This document shows positions 37,489 to 48,209 of a stretch of 64,000 nt of DNA, one piece after another; position 1 is the stretch's first letter, and every line of letters starts with the position of its first letter. Position numbers and translations under genes: made by a program. The stretch is taken from positions 1 to 64,000 of the forward strand of contig NZ_QWKI01000038.1 of NCBI RefSeq assembly GCF_009911645.1, read 5' to 3'. The notes under the pieces were generated by a model. That model made no database searches. It saw nothing but the letters and a program-made list of their open reading frames with translations, and had not been told where the DNA came from. The stretch comes from Pseudoflavonifractor sp. 60. GTDB lineage: Bacteria > Bacillota > Clostridia > Oscillospirales > Oscillospiraceae.

Positions 37489-39231
37489 ATGGCCATTATT
37501 GGCATTGACTTAGGCACGACGAACAGCCTGGCGGCGGTATGGCGCAACGGGAAGAGCGAACTGATCCCCAACGCCGCCAGGGAGTACCTGACCCCCAGCG
37601 TGGTCAGCGTGGACGAGGACGGGACTATTTTGGTGGGGGCGGCGGCCCGGGAGCGGCTGATAACCCATCCGGAGTGTACCGCCGCCTGCTTCAAGCGGGC
37701 CATGGGCACCAGCCGCCGGTTTGAGCTGGGGGGCCAGAGCTTCACGGCAGAAGAACTGTCCTCCTTTGTGCTGCGCCGGCTGCGGGAGGACGCGGAGGCC
37801 TACCTGGGCGAGGTGGTGGACGAGGCGGTGGTCAGCGTCCCCGCTTACTTTGCCGAGGCCCAGCGCGCCGCCACTAAGCGGGCTGGTGCGCTGGCGGGGC
37901 TGACGGTGGACCGTCTGGTGAACGAGCCCTCTGCGGCGGCGGTGGCCGGTCACATCGGCGAGGGGGAGGAGGACAAGGTGTGTCTGGTCTTCGACCTGGG
38001 GGGCGGAACGTTGGACGTCTCCCTGGTGGAGCGCTTTGACAACGTGGTCAGCGTCACCGCCGTCAGCGGAGACAACTTCCTGGGGGGCCGGGACTTTGAC
38101 GAGTTCATTGCCCGGGGCTTCTGCCAGGACTGCGGCCTGAATTTTGATACTCTGTCCCGTCCGCGGCAGGAGTCTCTCATCCGCCAGGCGGAGACCTGTA
38201 AAATGGCCCTTACCCACCAGGAGCCGGTGATTATGGCGGTGTCCGACGAGGAGATTTCCGCCTCGCTGCCCCTGACCCACGAGTGGGTGATCCGCAAGAG
38301 CAGCTCCCTGTTCCAGCGGATGCTGGCGCCGGTGCGCAAGGTATTTCTGGACGCAGGCATGGGGGCCAATGAGCTGGACGAGTTGGTGATGGTGGGGGGT
38401 TCCAGCCATATGCCGGCGGTGCGGCGGTATATCGCCAAGGCGCTGAAAAAGGAGCCTGCCGCCGGGACCCGGCCCGATACCGCCATTGCCATCGGGGCTG
38501 GCATCTGCGCCGGTATGAAGGTCCGGGCTCAGGATCTGCGGGGGCTGGTCCTTACCGATGTGTGCCCCTTTACCCTGGGGATCAATGTGCTGAACGAGGC
38601 CCAGCCGGACCGCTGCCTTATGTCCCCCATTATTGAGCGCAACAGCGTCCTCCCCTCCAGCAAGGAGGGGACCTACTGCACCGCCCGGGACAACCAGCGG
38701 GCCATTGATGTGAAGGTGTACCAGGGGGAGCAGCGCTACTGCGACGACAACACCTATTTGGGCCACGTGGAGCTGGCGGTGCCCCCCGCGCCCCGGGGCC
38801 ACCAGTTTGTTAAGGTGCGCTTTACCTACGATATCAACGGCCTGCTGGAGGTGGACGTAACCGGCAAGGACGGCCAGAAGGGGCGGCTGGTCCTCCAGGG
38901 CTCCGGCATGACGGAGGGGGAGGTGGAGCAGCGGCTGAAGGAGCTGGAGGCGCTGAAGCTCCACCCCAGGGACCAGGAGGGCCCCCGCACCCTTATTGCC
39001 CGGGGGGAGCGGCTGTATGCCATGACGGTGGGGCAGCTGCGGGACCAGGTGGCCTATATGCTGGACTGGTACCAGATCCAGCTATCGACCCAGGAGAGCC
39101 TGCGCATTGCCAAGGCCAGCCGCCGGGTCTCGGAGTTTTTTGACCAGGCAGAGGAGTACATCGGAGTGGATGGCCTGCCGCCCCTGGACTTGAATCCTCT
39201 GGCGGATGAAGACGGGGAGGAGGCGACATGA
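37489..39231 (+). CDS. Hsp70 family chaperone (HscC-like)
   Basis: A 580-residue Hsp70. The ATPase domain is complete: IIGIDLGTTNSLAAVW (phosphate 1), FDLGGGTLDVSLVE (phosphate 2), NEPSAAAVAGH and MVGGSSHMPAVRRYI (adenosine loop). The substrate-binding domain follows from residue 370 (DVCPFTLGINVLNE, DNQRAIDVKVYQGE) with a short helical lid. It lacks the EEVD-like tail and is shorter than DnaK. The ATG at 37489 follows AGGTGAGGG. Its stop overlaps the next gene (ATGA), a J-domain membrane protein that is its obvious cochaperone. Confidence 0.92.
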   Translation: MAIIGIDLGTTNSLAAVWRNGKSELIPNAAREYLTPSVVSVDEDGTILVGAAARERLITHPECTAACFKRAMGTSRRFELGGQSFTAEELSSFVLRRLREDAEAYLGEVVDEAVVSVPAYFAEAQRAATKRAGALAGLTVDRLVNEPSAAAVAGHIGEGEEDKVCLVFDLGGGTLDVSLVERFDNVVSVTAVSGDNFLGGRDFDEFIARGFCQDCGLNFDTLSRPRQESLIRQAETCKMALTHQEPVIMAVSDEEISASLPLTHEWVIRKSSSLFQRMLAPVRKVFLDAGMGANELDELVMVGGSSHMPAVRRYIAKALKKEPAAGTRPDTAIAIGAGICAGMKVRAQDLRGLVLTDVCPFTLGINVLNEAQPDRCLMSPIIERNSVLPSSKEGTYCTARDNQRAIDVKVYQGEQRYCDDNTYLGHVELAVPPAPRGHQFVKVRFTYDINGLLEVDVTGKDGQKGRLVLQGSGMTEGEVEQRLKELEALKLHPRDQEGPRTLIARGERLYAMTVGQLRDQVAYMLDWYQIQLSTQESLRIAKASRRVSEFFDQAEEYIGVDGLPPLDLNPLADEDGEEAT

Positions 39232-41552
39232 GCTGGCCTTGGAGTCAGTTGGGGCTGTCCGGTCCCTCCAGCCTGTCAGAGGTGCGCCACGCCTACGCCG
39301 AAAAGCTGAAAACCACTCACCCCGAGGACGACCCGGAGGGCTTTCAGCGGCTCCACTCCGCCTACCAGCTGGCCAGCCGCATAGCCCGGGAGCAAAACCG
39401 GCGCAGCCGGCCCTTCCCCCGGGTTGAGGACAGGCCGCACTCTCGTGTTGGAATGCGGGAGGACGACATTATGGAAATTGAGCGGCCGGAGGAGGATTTT
39501 GACTACGACCAGCTCCTTGGGGGGGAGGGGGAGCCTCCCCGCCGCCCCCGGGAGGAGGAGCGGGATTTCGATTACGACCAGCTCCTGGGGGGAGAGGGGG
39601 AGTCTCCCCGCCGCCCCCGCGAGGAGGAGCGGGATTTTGACTATGACCAGCTCCTTGGGGGAGAGGGGGAGCCTCCCCGCCGCCCCCGGGAGGAGGAGCA
39701 GGATTTTGACTATGACGAGCTCCTGGGGGGAGAGGAGGAGTCCCCCCGCCGCCCCCGGGAGGAGGAGCAGGATTTTGACTTTGACCGTCTCTTTGCCGAG
39801 GGGGAGGCGGAGCGGGCCGAGGCGCGCCGCCGCAGGGGGGAGGAGCGTCGGAAGGCCAAGGAACAGGAGCGGCTCCAGCGCCAGCAGCAGCGCAGCCGCT
39901 ATGAGGAGGACCTGCGCCGGCGCTTTCATCAGGACCAGCGGCGCTGGCAGGACACCGAGACCATCCTCCATACCATTGAGATGATGTATACTGCCGGGGC
40001 GGAGCCGCGTGCTTGGCGAAAATTTTTTGCGAGCCCCCTGTTCCAGCAGAACAAGGGAAGCCTGGACCTGGTGTTCGGCCTGGAGGACTTTGTGGACAGC
40101 CACCCGGAGCTGGACCGGGAGGTCAAAATGGCGTTGTACCAGGTCTACGGCTTTGAGCAGGGCCCCGCCCGGCCAGAGCTGCGGTTTTTATACCAGATGC
40201 TCCTCCCTGCCCGGAAAACGGCGGAGAAGGAGCGGCGGCGGCAGAAATGGAACAAGGTGGGGAGTATCCTGTGCGGTCTGCTGCTGGCCCCCGTGCTGAT
40301 GGCGCTGCTGGCAATGGGCTGGTTTTTCCCTCTGCTGCTTCTGGCGGTGTGCGCTGTGCTGCTCAGGTCTGTCTCCAAGGGGGGCCGGGGGCTGGGACTG
40401 CTCTGGCTGTTGGCCCTGGGGGGATTTACCTGGCTCTGTCTGGACCGGGGCTGGGGGCTGAAGCTCCCCCTGTCCATTCTGGCGGTTGGCGTGGTGTGCG
40501 GTGTGGTCCGGCAGTTGCTCCGCTTGGGCGGCCAGGAGCGGAGCGGGATGTCCAACAGCCGGAAAAGTGAGCGGTGGATTGTAGCCGTTACGGCAGTGTG
40601 TCTGGCTGCGGGTATCTCTATGCTGTTCATGCCCGAGCTGCGCCAGGGGATGGACCGGCTCTCCGCCCCCCGGGACCCCAGAGCGGAGGTCTGCCGCTGG
40701 ATGGAGGAGGACTTCGGGGTGGAGTTCCGTTCCCTCTACAGCGAAAATTCCTCCTCCAGCCGCTTTGACAACGTGTTTTCCCCCAAGGAGGAGCCGAACC
40801 GCCTCTTTTTAGCCGGCCCTGACGGGGCGCGGGACATTGAGGCGGACAGGCCGGGCTACACCACCAATTACTCCGACATGAGGGTCCTGTGGGCCATGGA
40901 GGACTTCGCCGAAGCTCACAATCTCCACGATGTGGACCTGATGAACCGGAACCAGAACCTGGCCAGCTGGGACACCTCGGGGACCTATCTGGTGATCCTG
41001 CCCTTCTGCGGGGCGGGGGATACCATCACAGATTTGGGGGCGCTGCTGGAGGAGCTGGCGGAAGAGGACTGGTATCAGGTCAGCCCCCCCGTTTTCAAGG
41101 TAGTGCTGTGCAGCGAGCAGCTCAACGACGGGCGGCTGATTTTGCAGGAGTACGAGAGCGGGGAGGGGGCCTTTGACGCCCAGGGGCTGCGGGAGCTGTA
41201 TGAGAACTCCTTCGCCCAGGCCTACTGCGCCCAGCTCCTCCGGGACTGTCAGCTGGACCGGGACTTCACCCGCAGCGATTCCGTGGAATTGTACACCCTG
41301 GCCGACGGAGGAGCGGCGCGGATGAAGGGGACGGACTGCTGGAAGCTGGTGGGGCTGGACGCAGGCGGCCAGTCGGTGATGGAGTACTATATTTCGGCGG
41401 ACAGCGACAAAATTTGCAATATTTACTGCGTCCCCGGTGATTTTTGGGAGAAGGGCGGCAGTGAAGATCAGCTCCACTTCTACCGTCTGATCCACCGGGA
41501 GACCGGTCTGGGGCTGGTCTATCTCCACTATCCCTGGCTGATTTCCACCTGA
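39228..41552 (+). CDS. J-domain membrane protein with 23-residue acidic/basic repeats
   Basis: A 774-residue protein translationally coupled to the Hsp70 gene. Residues 1-50 resemble a J domain, with VRHAYAEKLKTTHPEDDPEGF carrying HPE instead of the canonical HPD, as in several Firmicute J proteins; this is an identification of residues 20-40 only. Residues 90-181 are four tandem 23-residue repeats (DFDYDQLLGG...PRRPREEER type), then a charged coiled-coil-like stretch (185-240). About four hydrophobic segments lie between residues 338 and 470, followed by a 300-residue soluble C-terminal region of unknown fold, probably outside the membrane. Confidence 0.8.
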   Translation: MSWPWSQLGLSGPSSLSEVRHAYAEKLKTTHPEDDPEGFQRLHSAYQLASRIAREQNRRSRPFPRVEDRPHSRVGMREDDIMEIERPEEDFDYDQLLGGEGEPPRRPREEERDFDYDQLLGGEGESPRRPREEERDFDYDQLLGGEGEPPRRPREEEQDFDYDELLGGEEESPRRPREEEQDFDFDRLFAEGEAERAEARRRRGEERRKAKEQERLQRQQQRSRYEEDLRRRFHQDQRRWQDTETILHTIEMMYTAGAEPRAWRKFFASPLFQQNKGSLDLVFGLEDFVDSHPELDREVKMALYQVYGFEQGPARPELRFLYQMLLPARKTAEKERRRQKWNKVGSILCGLLLAPVLMALLAMGWFFPLLLLAVCAVLLRSVSKGGRGLGLLWLLALGGFTWLCLDRGWGLKLPLSILAVGVVCGVVRQLLRLGGQERSGMSNSRKSERWIVAVTAVCLAAGISMLFMPELRQGMDRLSAPRDPRAEVCRWMEEDFGVEFRSLYSENSSSSRFDNVFSPKEEPNRLFLAGPDGARDIEADRPGYTTNYSDMRVLWAMEDFAEAHNLHDVDLMNRNQNLASWDTSGTYLVILPFCGAGDTITDLGALLEELAEEDWYQVSPPVFKVVLCSEQLNDGRLILQEYESGEGAFDAQGLRELYENSFAQAYCAQLLRDCQLDRDFTRSDSVELYTLADGGAARMKGTDCWKLVGLDAGGQSVMEYYISADSDKICNIYCVPGDFWEKGGSEDQLHFYRLIHRETGLGLVYLHYPWLIST
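39495..39770 (+). repeat. Four in-frame 69-bp tandem repeats
   Basis: Units start at 39495, 39564, 39633 and 39702, each encoding a variant of DFDYDQLLGGEGE-PPRRPREEER, followed by a degenerate partial unit (DFDFDRLFAEGE). The first three are nearly identical in DNA, so copy number may vary between strains. Confidence 0.9.
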
Positions 41553-41600
41553 GTGCTTTGAGCCCTCCGGCAGCCCAATACCGTTTCGTTCAGGAAAAAA

Positions 41601-41653
41601 CGCCCACCTATTGCCGGTGCAGCGGAAAACTGAGCGGAGGGATACGGTGGGCG
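41601..41653. other. Long hairpin in the gap before the GDH genes
   Basis: CGCCCACC (41601-41608) pairs with GGTGGGCG (41646-41653) around a 37-nt internal region. On the minus strand the right arm is followed directly by TTTTTT, as in a terminator, yet no minus-strand gene lies upstream. On the plus strand ATTTTTTG follows 10 nt later. It may be a terminator for the J-protein operon or a small RNA. The rest of 41553-41852 shows only the GDH promoter. Confidence 0.45.
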
Positions 41654-41778
41654 GCCGGAGGGATTTTTTGTCATTCCGTGGGAAATGTTTACGTCAAAAT
41701 GCCGAAAGTCTTTCGCTGACGGACTATCGCTTTAACGCATTAAACAAAGTTTTGTTTTGCAAGAAATAAATCATTGAC

Positions 41779-43199
<1,421 letters not shown>

Positions 43200-43211
43200 G
43201 GAGGGGAAACT

Positions 43212-44555
43212 ATGAATAACTACGCCTACCGCGTACTGGAACGGCTTCGTCAGAAGTACCCCGGCGAGTCGGAGTACCTCCAATCCGTCCAGACCTGGCT
43301 GGAGATGATCGATCCCGCCCTGGACAACCCCCGCTACGAGAAGCTGGACCTGCTCACCCGCATGGTGGAGCCCGAGCGGATGGTCACCTTCCTGGTGCCC
43401 TGGGTGGACGACAAGGGCAATGCCCACACCAACCACGGCTACCGGGTCCAGTTCAACAGCGCCATCGGTCCCTATAAGGGCGGCCTGCGGTTCCACCCCT
43501 CGGTGAATGAGAGCGTGGTGAAGTTCCTGGGCTTTGAGCAGACCTATAAGAACGCCCTCACCGGCCTGCCCATCGGCGGGGCCTCCGGCGGCTCCGACTT
43601 CGACCCCCGGGGCAAGAGCGACCGGGAGATCATGCGCTTCTGCCAGTCCTTTATGAATGCCCTGTACCGCTATATCGGCGCGGACACCGATATCCCCGCC
43701 GGCGACATCGGCGTGGGCGCCAAGGAGATCGGCTACCTCTACGGTCAGTACAAGCGCCTGCTGGGCAAGGCGGAGAGCTCCGCCCTGACCGGCAAGGGCC
43801 TGACCTACGGCGGCAGCAAGGTCCGCCTGGAGGCCGCCGGCTCCGGCACCGTCTACTTCCTGGCCCGAATGGTGGAGAGCAAGGGGGACACCCTGGAAGG
43901 CAAGACCATTGCCGTGTCCGGCTTTGGCAACATGACCTGGGGCGTGTGCCGCAAGGCGGCTCAGCTGGGGGCAAAGGTAGTGACCCTCTCCGGCCCCGAC
44001 GGCTACGTCTACGATCCCGAGGGCGTCACCACCAGGGAGAAGCTGGACTATCTCCTGGAGATGCGCGCCGCCGGCGGCGACCGGGTGTCCGCCTATGCCC
44101 GCAAGTTTGGCGTGGAGTTCTTCCCCGGCAAGAAGCCCTGGGAGGTGAAGACGGACATTGTGATCCCCTGCGCAACCCAGAATGAGCTGGACGTGGAGGA
44201 CGCCATCAGCATCCTGGCCAACGACGTGCGCTACTACGTGGAGGGCGCTAATATGCCCGCCACCAGCCAGGCTATGAAGCTGCTGCGCCTCAGCCCCAAG
44301 ATCCTCACGGCGGGGGCCAAGGCCTCCGGCTCCGGCGGTGTGGCCGTGTCCGCCCTGGAGATGGCTCAGAACTCCATCCGCTACAACTGGACCCGGGACG
44401 AGGTGGACGACAAGCTGCGCCAGATCATGAGCGCCATCTACGACGCCTCCGCCACTGCCGCTGAGGAATACGGCCTGGGAGACGACCTGATTGCCGGCAA
44501 CGATATCGCCGCCTTCAAGAAGATTTCCGAGGCGATGATTGCCCAGGGACTGTAA
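43212..44555 (+). CDS. Glutamate dehydrogenase paralogue lacking the catalytic lysine
   Basis: A 447-residue protein that aligns along its whole length with the GDH upstream and keeps [31 protein letters not shown] and [13 protein letters not shown]. The catalytic motif, however, reads IGGASGGSDFDP: Ser125 (codon TCC at 43584-43586) replaces the Lys of GGGKGG. AAG to TCC needs three changes, so it is not a single error. The dinucleotide loop is SGFGNMT. The frame is intact, with AAGGAGG upstream, in the same operon. It may be a non-catalytic subunit of a mixed hexamer, or use another substrate. Confidence 0.93.
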   Translation: MNNYAYRVLERLRQKYPGESEYLQSVQTWLEMIDPALDNPRYEKLDLLTRMVEPERMVTFLVPWVDDKGNAHTNHGYRVQFNSAIGPYKGGLRFHPSVNESVVKFLGFEQTYKNALTGLPIGGASGGSDFDPRGKSDREIMRFCQSFMNALYRYIGADTDIPAGDIGVGAKEIGYLYGQYKRLLGKAESSALTGKGLTYGGSKVRLEAAGSGTVYFLARMVESKGDTLEGKTIAVSGFGNMTWGVCRKAAQLGAKVVTLSGPDGYVYDPEGVTTREKLDYLLEMRAAGGDRVSAYARKFGVEFFPGKKPWEVKTDIVIPCATQNELDVEDAISILANDVRYYVEGANMPATSQAMKLLRLSPKILTAGAKASGSGGVAVSALEMAQNSIRYNWTRDEVDDKLRQIMSAIYDASATAAEEYGLGDDLIAGNDIAAFKKISEAMIAQGL

Positions 44556-44563
44556 CTAAATTT

Positions 44564-44596
44564 CAGGGACGCGCCATGGGGCGCGTCCCTGTTTTA
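44564..44596 (+). terminator. Terminator of the GDH operon
   Basis: CAGGGACGCGCC/GGCGCGTCCCTG, a perfect 12-bp stem with a 4-nt loop, followed by TTTT. Confidence 0.9.
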
Positions 44597-44638
44597 CTGT
44601 ATTAAATAATGCTTCCTTATTTGCGCCGGTTTAGGGAT

Positions 44639-45328
44639 TTAGCCCCCTGTTTCCCTGGACTGACTTATCAGCTGGCTGATTTTATTGTCAGCGGCCTGTT
44701 TGGCGGTTTTGGTGGTCTCCTCAACGGTGGGGATGTGAATATCCTTCAGCGCATAGGGGTCGTTGAGCCGCAGGCCGGTACCAGTGAGCATAGCCCGCAC
44801 CTGGGTATAGGTCCACTGCCGCTCAGCGGCCGGCATACTGGCGTCAAAGAAGTCAGACCAGGAGCACTGGTACTTGCCGGCGATGAAGTTCAGCTGGCTG
44901 GGCAGGTCCCGCCCCAGGGGGCTGTGCAGGGCCTCCTGATAGGCGCCGGCGTAGTAGTCCTGGATAGCGCCCACGGCGGTGTCCCGGAACTGGACCGCCT
45001 GGGAGACATAGGAGTCAAAATAGGTTTTGCACCAGATCTGCCCGTCCGGGTCGACGGCGGCGTTCCAGTTGATCTCCAGCTCCTGCTGTTCCAGCTGTGC
45101 CCGAACCGCGGAGATAAATTCCTCTTTTGACATGGAGTCCCAATTGATCCCCAGGGGTTCCCGGCTCTGGCGGGGTTCCAGCTCCGATACAGCCTGACGG
45201 CCCTCCGGGGAGAGCTCCAGCTTGTCCTGGGACTGGTCTCCAGGGGACTGCTGTTCCTCAGCGGCGGCGGAGCGGGCGGTTCGGATCAGCGCCAGCTGAC
45301 TGGTATTGTAGACAGGGGCCACATTCAT
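44639..45328 (-). CDS. Protein of unknown function
   Basis: A 229-residue soluble protein that I do not recognise. The first 60 residues are low-complexity and rich in Gln, Ser and Glu (AAAEEQQSPGDQSQDKLELSPEG), a disordered-looking leader. The rest is mixed helical, with WNAAVDPDGQIWCKTYFDSYV and WSDFFDASMPAAERQWTYTQV. It has no signal peptide or membrane segment. It is convergent with the GDH operon and upstream of none; a GGAGG-like RBS precedes the ATG. The leader resembles the N-termini of flagellar or hook-associated proteins only in composition. Confidence 0.65.
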   Translation of the reverse strand: MNVAPVYNTSQLALIRTARSAAAEEQQSPGDQSQDKLELSPEGRQAVSELEPRQSREPLGINWDSMSKEEFISAVRAQLEQQELEINWNAAVDPDGQIWCKTYFDSYVSQAVQFRDTAVGAIQDYYAGAYQEALHSPLGRDLPSQLNFIAGKYQCSWSDFFDASMPAAERQWTYTQVRAMLTGTGLRLNDPYALKDIHIPTVEETTKTAKQAADNKISQLISQSRETGG

Positions 45329-45377
45329 CGCAGGTTCCTCCCTCGCAGTGATATATAAGAAATATCGGCAGGGAGAT

Positions 45378-45406
45378 GAAAAAAATAAGCGGCGGAGACC
45401 GCCGCT
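45378..45406 (-). terminator. Terminator of rqcH
   Basis: AGCGGCGG/CCGCCGCT hairpin with a 3-nt loop, followed on the minus strand by TATTTTTTTT, 9 nt after the rqcH stop. Confidence 0.88.
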
Positions 45407-47675: not shown

Positions 47676-48209
47676 TCAGTAAGGAAACTCGGCGAAATAA
47701 TCTACCTCGTCCCCGTCGGTGAGCCAGCGCTCAAACCAGCCTAAAAAGTCCTGGCGCTGGCAGCAGGGCTGGACGCCCATTTCGCAGAAATGCCAGACCT
47801 CGCCCCGGCAAGGGCCGGTGATGACCAGCTCAAAGGTCTGGGCGCAGCCGATGTCGATGAGCTCCAGCGTTCCGCTGGTGAAGGGATTGCCGAAGGGCGG
47901 CTCCTCGCCCTCCTCCAGATCGTCCCATTCCTCCCAATGTTCCTCATAGCGGAAGGGCTGGGCGTAGTTTTCCACCTCACGCTTTGCTTTAAGAGTCAGA
48001 AGGTCAAAGCCGCCGAACATCTCGCAGCCGTCGCCCACCTCCCCCAGGAAGCGGCGGTAGCCCTCGGGCAGGGTGACCCCATGTTTTTGCTCAAAGGAAC
48101 GGATTTTTTCCTCGGACAGCACCGGCCCCATTTGAATGTCCTGTTTCTGGATTGCCGCCTTGATCCGCGCTAAAACGGCGTCGTATTCTTCCGTCTTGTA
48201 AATTGGCAT
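47676..48209 (-). CDS. SMI1/KNR4 (SUKH) domain protein
   Basis: A 177-residue SUKH protein: LSEEKIRSFEQKHGVTLPEGYRRFL (residues 31-55) followed by VGDGCEMFGGFDLLTL, an insert rich in Glu and Trp, LIDIGCAQTFELVITGP and VWHFCEMGVQP, and a final LGWFERWLTDG. It probably acts as a cytoplasmic immunity or regulatory protein. It lies between the gene at 47302 and mrnC. This is the second SUKH gene in the window; the other is at 22335. Confidence 0.85.
   Translation of the reverse strand: MPIYKTEEYDAVLARIKAAIQKQDIQMGPVLSEEKIRSFEQKHGVTLPEGYRRFLGEVGDGCEMFGGFDLLTLKAKREVENYAQPFRYEEHWEEWDDLEEGEEPPFGNPFTSGTLELIDIGCAQTFELVITGPCRGEVWHFCEMGVQPCCQRQDFLGWFERWLTDGDEVDYFAEFPY

Follow-up and report, generated by a model that had tools for sequence, protein, structure and literature searches.

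According to PMC12364357, most bacterial glutamate dehydrogenases (GDHs) of the size class of gdhA and gdhB are homohexamers. PMC9570180 describes the GDH of Thermus thermophilus as a leucine-activated heterohexamer made of an inactive, regulatory GdhA and a catalytic GdhB. A dead paralogue is also described for trypanosomatid deoxyhypusine synthase, where it hetero-oligomerises with its partner and activates it 3000-fold (PMC3663545). Being eukaryotic and of another enzyme family, that pair is an analogue of gdhA-gdhB in logic only.

The pair described here resembles T. thermophilus GdhA/GdhB (PDB 3AOE) in that there are two GDH paralogues, one of them inactive, here as judged from its sequence alone. 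Unlike in T. thermophilus, the putatively dead subunit comes from the C. symbiosum-like NAD branch and its partner is NADP-like. The downstream protein, gdhB, is 28% identical to chain D of 3AOE and 30% to GdhB (3AOG), and belongs to another GDH subfamily. A common subfamily or origin with the T. thermophilus inactive subunit was not found, the identities being 28-30% as against 56-58% to C. symbiosum GDH chains, and the trees holding no Thermus sequence. The closest solved relative of gdhB is the NAD-specific GDH of C. symbiosum (1bgv, 1hrd; 614.5 bits), which is also the nearest by fold, in its K89L mutant 1k89, and has the GFGN and SGPDG motifs in common with gdhB. Unlike the C. symbiosum enzyme, gdhB has no Lys125 and carries T209A, N373G, P368G, G190S, V241M and A374S. 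No published account of the gdhA-gdhB pair was found in the open-licence literature, which was the only kind searched.

The pair lies in the window, by which we mean the whole stretch of DNA analysed (64,000 nucleotides of contig NZ_QWKI01000038.1 of Pseudoflavonifractor sp. 60). Its features are collected in Table 1. Both open reading frames are whole and the second starts 12 nt after the first, as the sequence-only reading of this DNA had stated. Five terminator-like sites were present in the scanned stretch, where 3.2 were expected, and the strongest was the hairpin behind gdhB. No terminator-like site was found on the + strand between the two genes in that stretch, and no promoter-like site was found within 41400-45400. 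Upstream, the neighbours of gdhA are an Hsp70-like gene and a gene for a 774-aa protein without a Pfam match. Downstream of gdhB, the opposite strand encodes a 229-aa protein without a Pfam match and an NFACT/RqcH-type protein. From this picture of terminators, signals and neighbouring genes, the operon most likely consists of gdhA and gdhB alone.

Table 1. Features of the gdhA-gdhB locus and selected codons of gdhB, with positions in the window
Feature	Position	Strand	Remarks
gdhA, complete GDH, 448 aa, catalytic Lys (GGGKGG)	41853..43199	+	intact ORF
gdhA-gdhB gap, 12 nt, with GGAGGGG Shine-Dalgarno immediately 3' of the gdhA stop	43200..43211	+	
gdhB, predicted pseudo-GDH, 447 aa, ATG start, without catalytic Lys	43212..44555	+	intact ORF
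gdhB codon 89, Lys retained	43476..43478	+	42/42 gdhB
gdhB codon 113, Lys retained	43548..43550	+	42/42 gdhB
gdhB codon 125, Ser (TCC) replacing catalytic Lys	43584..43586	+	alignment to 1bgv
gdhB codon 165, catalytic Asp retained	43704..43706	+	42/42 gdhB
gdhB codon 209, Thr to Ala	43836..43838	+	Ala in 42/42 gdhB, Thr in 168/168 others
gdhB codon 368, Pro to Gly	44313..44315	+	Gly in 41/42 gdhB, Pro in 168/168 others
gdhB codon 373, Asn to Gly	44328..44330	+	Gly in 42/42 gdhB, Asn in 168/168 others
Terminator-like hairpin 3' of gdhB, followed by T's; 12 pairs, 10 of them G-C	44564..44591	+	

The codon bias of the two genes is alike. AAG makes up 0.96 of the lysine codons in gdhA and all of them (1.00) in gdhB, GGC makes up 0.82 and 0.81 of the glycine codons, GC3 is 0.88 and 0.90, and the codons AGA, ATA, CTA and TTA are absent from both. 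This bias exceeds that of six compared neighbour genes on four of five measures; on the fifth, the share of two-fold codons that end in C, both are surpassed by the RqcH-type gene. A bias so similar and so strong fits high expression of both genes. The source genome has a third GDH gene, which lies on another contig and has the lysine.

Two neighbouring genes were noted in passing. The 774-aa protein (39228-41552), which stands beside the Hsp70-like gene, has by eye a J-domain-like N-terminus and roughly four acidic/arginine repeats in tandem, of the type ERDFDYDQLLGGEGE-PRRPREE. Close to the RqcH-type gene there is a SUKH-family gene (SMI1_KNR4, 47676-48209), and this family is frequently tied to toxin immunity.

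The AlphaFold2 model of gdhB has the complete GDH fold (mean pLDDT 86.4, pTM 0.87) and falls below 50 solely at residues 158-160 and 188-200, near the cleft; the gdhA control model (mean pLDDT 88.6) has no stretch below 50. The best structural match of the gdhB model, 1k89, was obtained with a Z of 55.1 over 444 of 447 residues at 1.6 A. Both Pfam domains of the Glu/Leu/Phe/Val dehydrogenase fold family are recognised in gdhB, PF02812 with 177.1 bits (cut-off 25.3) and PF00208 with 239.1 bits (cut-off 23.4). gdhA scores 762.2 bits against NCBIfam NF006929, for which the cut-off is 536. Since gdhB also lies above the cut-off of 536 for the NCBIfam NADP-specific GDH, with 612.7 bits, automatic annotation would name it an active enzyme.

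gdhA has its motif lysine at Lys129 in its own numbering, and the corresponding sequence of gdhB is PIGGASGGSDFDP. In the alignment to 1bgv, which covers residues 2-447 of 449, Ser125 of gdhB pairs with Lys125 of C. symbiosum GDH, which confirms the serine codon that had been placed at the lysine site from the DNA letters. None of 42 gdhB orthologues has the lysine of GGxKGG, a mark of active GDHs; the residue there is Ser (21), Ala (17) or Gly (4). The 168 other GDHs with 380 residues or more all have it. These comparison proteins come from all collected loci except L003 and L152-L155 and include near-copies, those of L006 and L125 being identical. The sequence-only reading had proposed to ask if the serine is conserved among tandem pairs and had named orthologues mostly carrying lysine as a refuting outcome. 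The second did not come true, and for the first it is the absence of lysine that is conserved, with serine in only half of the orthologues. At least four changes occurred at position 125 on the gdhB tree, all among Ser, Ala and Gly. Because the site varies only among these three residues, it is lysine that is barred and small size that is maintained, and a conserved Ser125 as such was rejected.

The 42 orthologues are the gdhB of the window, 29 from its own genus, 11 from further genera in the family (probably Oscillospiraceae) and one from an Oscillospiraceae MAG (L004). Of these ORFs 41 are full length, and that of L111, which runs into a contig end, has 394 residues. Not counted among the 42 are another gdhA-gdhB copy of genome G011 and a fragment of 40 residues in G055. 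The search of genome contigs for GDH loci gave at least 80 loci. In all 42 gdhB loci the gene lies directly 3' of gdhA on the same strand, gdhA being cut by a contig end in four. The lysine is present in all 39 tandem gdhA whose codon is uncut; the other three (L099, L102 and L119) are cut by contig ends. Of the 41 gaps measured between the two genes, 37 have 10-16 nt and the remaining four have 24, 53, 170 and 302 nt. At the two longest gaps (302 nt in L118 and 170 nt in L122), palindrome-rich DNA is inserted and a new Shine-Dalgarno-like stretch precedes gdhB.

Within the genus of the window, 64 genomes were compared and 31 have gdhB, recognised in 30 by at least 71% identity and in one by the 40-residue contig-end fragment. 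gdhA is immediately 5' in all 31; the other 33 genomes show no gdhB. In a family sample of 400 genomes it was found in 14, of which 11 lie outside the genus, in five other genera. No gdhB orthologue from outside the family was found in the order sample (394 genomes, E <= 1e-190) or in the class (391) and phylum (398) samples (E <= 1e-195); these thresholds are strict, and more diverged pseudo-GDHs would escape them. G011 has two separate gdhA-gdhB pairs, on contigs C18 and C27, one of which is locus L108. Two plasmid records, NZ_MW509820.1 and NZ_CP048697.1, also contain GDH-like sequence (47% identity over residues 133-447) where the annotation reads VWA domain-containing protein.

The locus had been read as a tandem GDH whose second copy lacks the lysine. 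The trees do not bear out this origin. The gdhB clade is monophyletic in a tree of 190 proteins (SH-aLRT 100, stem 0.62 changes per site) and in a tree of 61 proteins with 12 gdhB (100/100, stem 0.61), and it nests within the NAD-type clostridial GDHs (99/89), on the C. symbiosum-like branch and away from gdhA. We rejected gdhB as a tandem duplicate of gdhA because it nests in this other branch and not beside gdhA. By its place in the trees, gdhB is from the NAD-type branch and two different GDH types are joined in one locus.

The nucleotide-binding motifs go in the same direction. gdhB has GFGN (42 of 42) and SGPDG (41 of 42), as in its NAD-type relatives, and the tandem gdhA have GSGNVA and DS(N/G/A)G in 39 of 39 (in the window GSGNVA and SDSNG, which are NADP-like). 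According to PMC12364357, the turn of NADP enzymes is usually, though not always, GSGXXA. From these motifs and the tree, we infer that gdhA uses NADP and that gdhB descends from NAD enzymes. In an unrelated Clostridiaceae MAG (L016:2287-5338), an A-like GDH gene and a C-like one, both with the lysine, share a strand and are separated by about 370 nt. The two were rejected as an ancestral pair of the gdhA-gdhB type, as the 99/89 node leaves its C-like gene outside gdhB.

If the two proteins touch each other, gdhA may carry traces of it. Ten positions of gdhA are tandem-specific (8, 45, 48, 50, 65, 391, 408, 409, 441 and 445), that is, at least 90% conserved in the 39 tandem gdhA and present in at most 10% of 36 solo A-like GDHs, with L140 and L141 excluded. 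These last two are loci of two genus genomes (G038 and G041) in which a gdhA of the tandem clade has no gdhB behind it. Both gdhA branch from within the tandem-gdhA clade (nodes 98/96 and 95/85), which makes a loss of gdhB in their lineage the most likely history. Each differs at 7 of the 10 tandem-specific positions. At 121 control positions, where solo GDHs are variable as well, the differences number 13 and 16, and Fisher's test, with positions treated as independent, gives p = 6e-5 and 2e-4. The partnered controls, for which the own clade was left out, showed 0-3 changes of 10 or 11 positions in 22 of the 39 tandem gdhA, a gap being counted as a difference, so that L118, cut at its start, adds to the figure. 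L140 and L141 are sisters (85/78), so the pattern is partly a single event and at best one or two losses, and their genomes are 65% and 85% complete. Judging from the different residues that the two take at some positions, their changes are partly independent. We read the pattern as relaxed co-adaptation of gdhA after the loss of gdhB, and as a possible hint that A and B touch. Domain I of gdhB, the assembly domain, was not found to have an excess of A-like sequence; the identities in this domain are 0.72 for A-B, 0.78 for A-C and 0.70 for B-C, and gdhB shares the gdhA residue against the C-type consensus at 3 positions only.

Substitution rates were compared for 38 loci in which both genes have at least 380 residues. 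These give 703 pairs, of which 21 were excluded because dS was not under 1.5 in both genes. Over the remaining 682 pairs, the median omega (Nei-Gojobori) was 0.18 for gdhB and 0.16 for gdhA, which indicates that gdhB is under purifying selection. Neutral drift, which had been named as a second refuting outcome, was thus not seen, and the proposal of a conserved pseudo-subunit encoded beside an active one gains support from this selection together with the clade-wide absence of the lysine. The dN values of the two genes correlate at 0.90 over 703 pairs, which shared ancestry alone could give. By region, for the first 150 of the 682 pairs, the median dN of gdhB and gdhA was 0.140 vs 0.092 in the N-terminus, 0.081 vs 0.034 in domain I, 0.151 vs 0.152 in domain II and 0.068 vs 0.087 in the C-terminal part.

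The sequence-only reading had also taken the substrate pocket to be unchanged apart from the lysine, and in this it was wrong. As a reference we took 122 invariant positions, which have the same residue in at least 95% of both 49 A-like and 99 other GDHs; six GDH fragments of 100-380 residues had been set aside for this count, and shorter ones were no part of it. gdhB retains 104 of them (in at least 95% of gdhB), and 11 are nearly lost: 28, 112, 125, 190, 209, 241, 368, 373, 374, 430 and 431. Among the residues kept are K89, Q110, K113, D165, R205, N240 and S380 in all 42 gdhB, and Ala163 in 41. We take K89, Q110, K113 and S380 to be the ligands of the substrate carboxylate in C. symbiosum GDH, T209 and N240 to be coenzyme (NAD(P)) binding residues, and K125 and D165 to be catalytic. 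Seven of the 11 lost positions (125, 190, 209, 241, 368, 373 and 374) presumably line the hydride-transfer side of the pocket. From the kept and lost residues and these assumed roles, the carboxylate site of gdhB looks whole and its hydride-transfer side changed; the presumed carboxylate ligands are what stands of the claim, and the substitutions at 190, 209, 241, 368, 373 and 374, clade-wide or nearly so, are what it missed. The retained carboxylate residues point to ligand binding by gdhB, short of proof, because their retention is no better than the general level of 104 of 122.

Taken together, we consider it fairly probable that gdhB is a dead, ligand-binding subunit of a mixed hexamer in which it regulates gdhA. 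A mixed, regulated hexamer had also been suggested by the sequence-only reading. Our reading builds on the clade-wide loss of the lysine, the kept carboxylate residues, the purifying selection, the strict linkage to gdhA and the changes of gdhA in the lineage without gdhB. The mixed hexamer is also favoured by the complete predicted fold, the shared codon bias and the T. thermophilus precedent. The operon would then encode an active, probably NADP-type GDH (A) together with a paralogue (B) that is catalytically dead and descends from the NAD type; the two would most likely form mixed hexamers. With its carboxylate site intact, B would probably still bind glutamate or 2-oxoglutarate, perhaps also NAD(H) through its intact Rossmann motif, and would be unable to transfer hydride. 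An occupied dead B site could then tune the domain movements and activity of the adjacent A subunits. Several results weigh against the mixed hexamer: in domain I, gdhB resembles A no more than expected and has about twice the dN of gdhA, the carboxylate residues are kept no better than other invariants, low-confidence stretches near the cleft occur in the B model only, 33 of the 64 genus genomes are without gdhB, and the B-less gdhA sisters come from incomplete genomes.

A bolder form of this reading, which seems to us possible but doubtful, is that gdhB arose independently as an allosteric pseudo-GDH and sits, as a dead subunit of the NAD type, in an NADP-type hexamer. Its pocket, in which K125, N373, T209 and P368 were all made small, would be a receptor for NAD(H) or for another amino or keto acid. 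A second metabolite would then gate nitrogen assimilation through the former active site.

The same small residues could open the amine side of the pocket for another substrate, or for a non-redox reaction on a glutarate-like acid, so that gdhB would be an enzyme with a changed reaction. The changes in the pocket are fixed or nearly so (Ala209 and Gly373 in 42, Gly368 and Ser190 in 41, Ser374 and Met241 in 40 of 42), and together with the kept Asp165 and carboxylate residues they suggest that the pocket was selected for something specific. However, position 125 wanders among Ser, Ala and Gly and so offers no new conserved catalytic side chain. Thr209, which we take to bind NAD(P), is gone, and the strict linkage to gdhA is unexpected for an independent enzyme. 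We consider a changed reaction, the other option named by the sequence-only reading, rather unlikely.

It is unlikely that gdhB is a purely structural or dosage partner, which would dilute or stabilise A in mixed hexamers and sense no ligand. The full fold, the strict linkage and the similar codon bias are what such a partner would have, and the retained pocket residues are kept no better than the other canonical invariants. However, K89, Q110, K113, D165 and S380 are present in all 42 orthologues, in a clade that goes down to 71% identity to the gdhB of the window, and the changed pocket positions are nearly fixed, which would be needless for a mere scaffold.

Some ordinary GDH activity of gdhB by a lysine-independent route would fit the kept Asp165 and presumed carboxylate ligands and the family name that its NCBIfam score would give it, but with Lys125 universal in the other 168 GDHs and T209 and N373 lost alongside it, we regard such activity as very improbable. 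That gdhB is a duplicate in decay, or an artefact of sequencing or assembly, could be argued from the genus genomes without a copy, but this view has practically no chance against conservation in 42 orthologues from separate genomes (41 full-length, one cut by a contig end), an omega of 0.18, conserved spacing and the codon usage of highly expressed genes, in agreement with the earlier view that neither error nor decay explains the missing lysine.

An inactive regulatory GDH subunit is already known from T. thermophilus, and what would be new here is a clostridial-type pair of separate descent. Because gdhB is only 28-30% identical to the T. thermophilus chains and belongs to another subfamily, regulatory pseudo-subunits would have arisen separately, and apparently for the second time, among GDHs. 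A natural pair of an active and a dead subunit, with a pocket that is conserved and specifically altered, would allow testing how the occupancy of one site controls the other sites of a GDH hexamer. For the bacteria that carry the pair, naming gdhB an active NADP-specific GDH would mislead their metabolic models.
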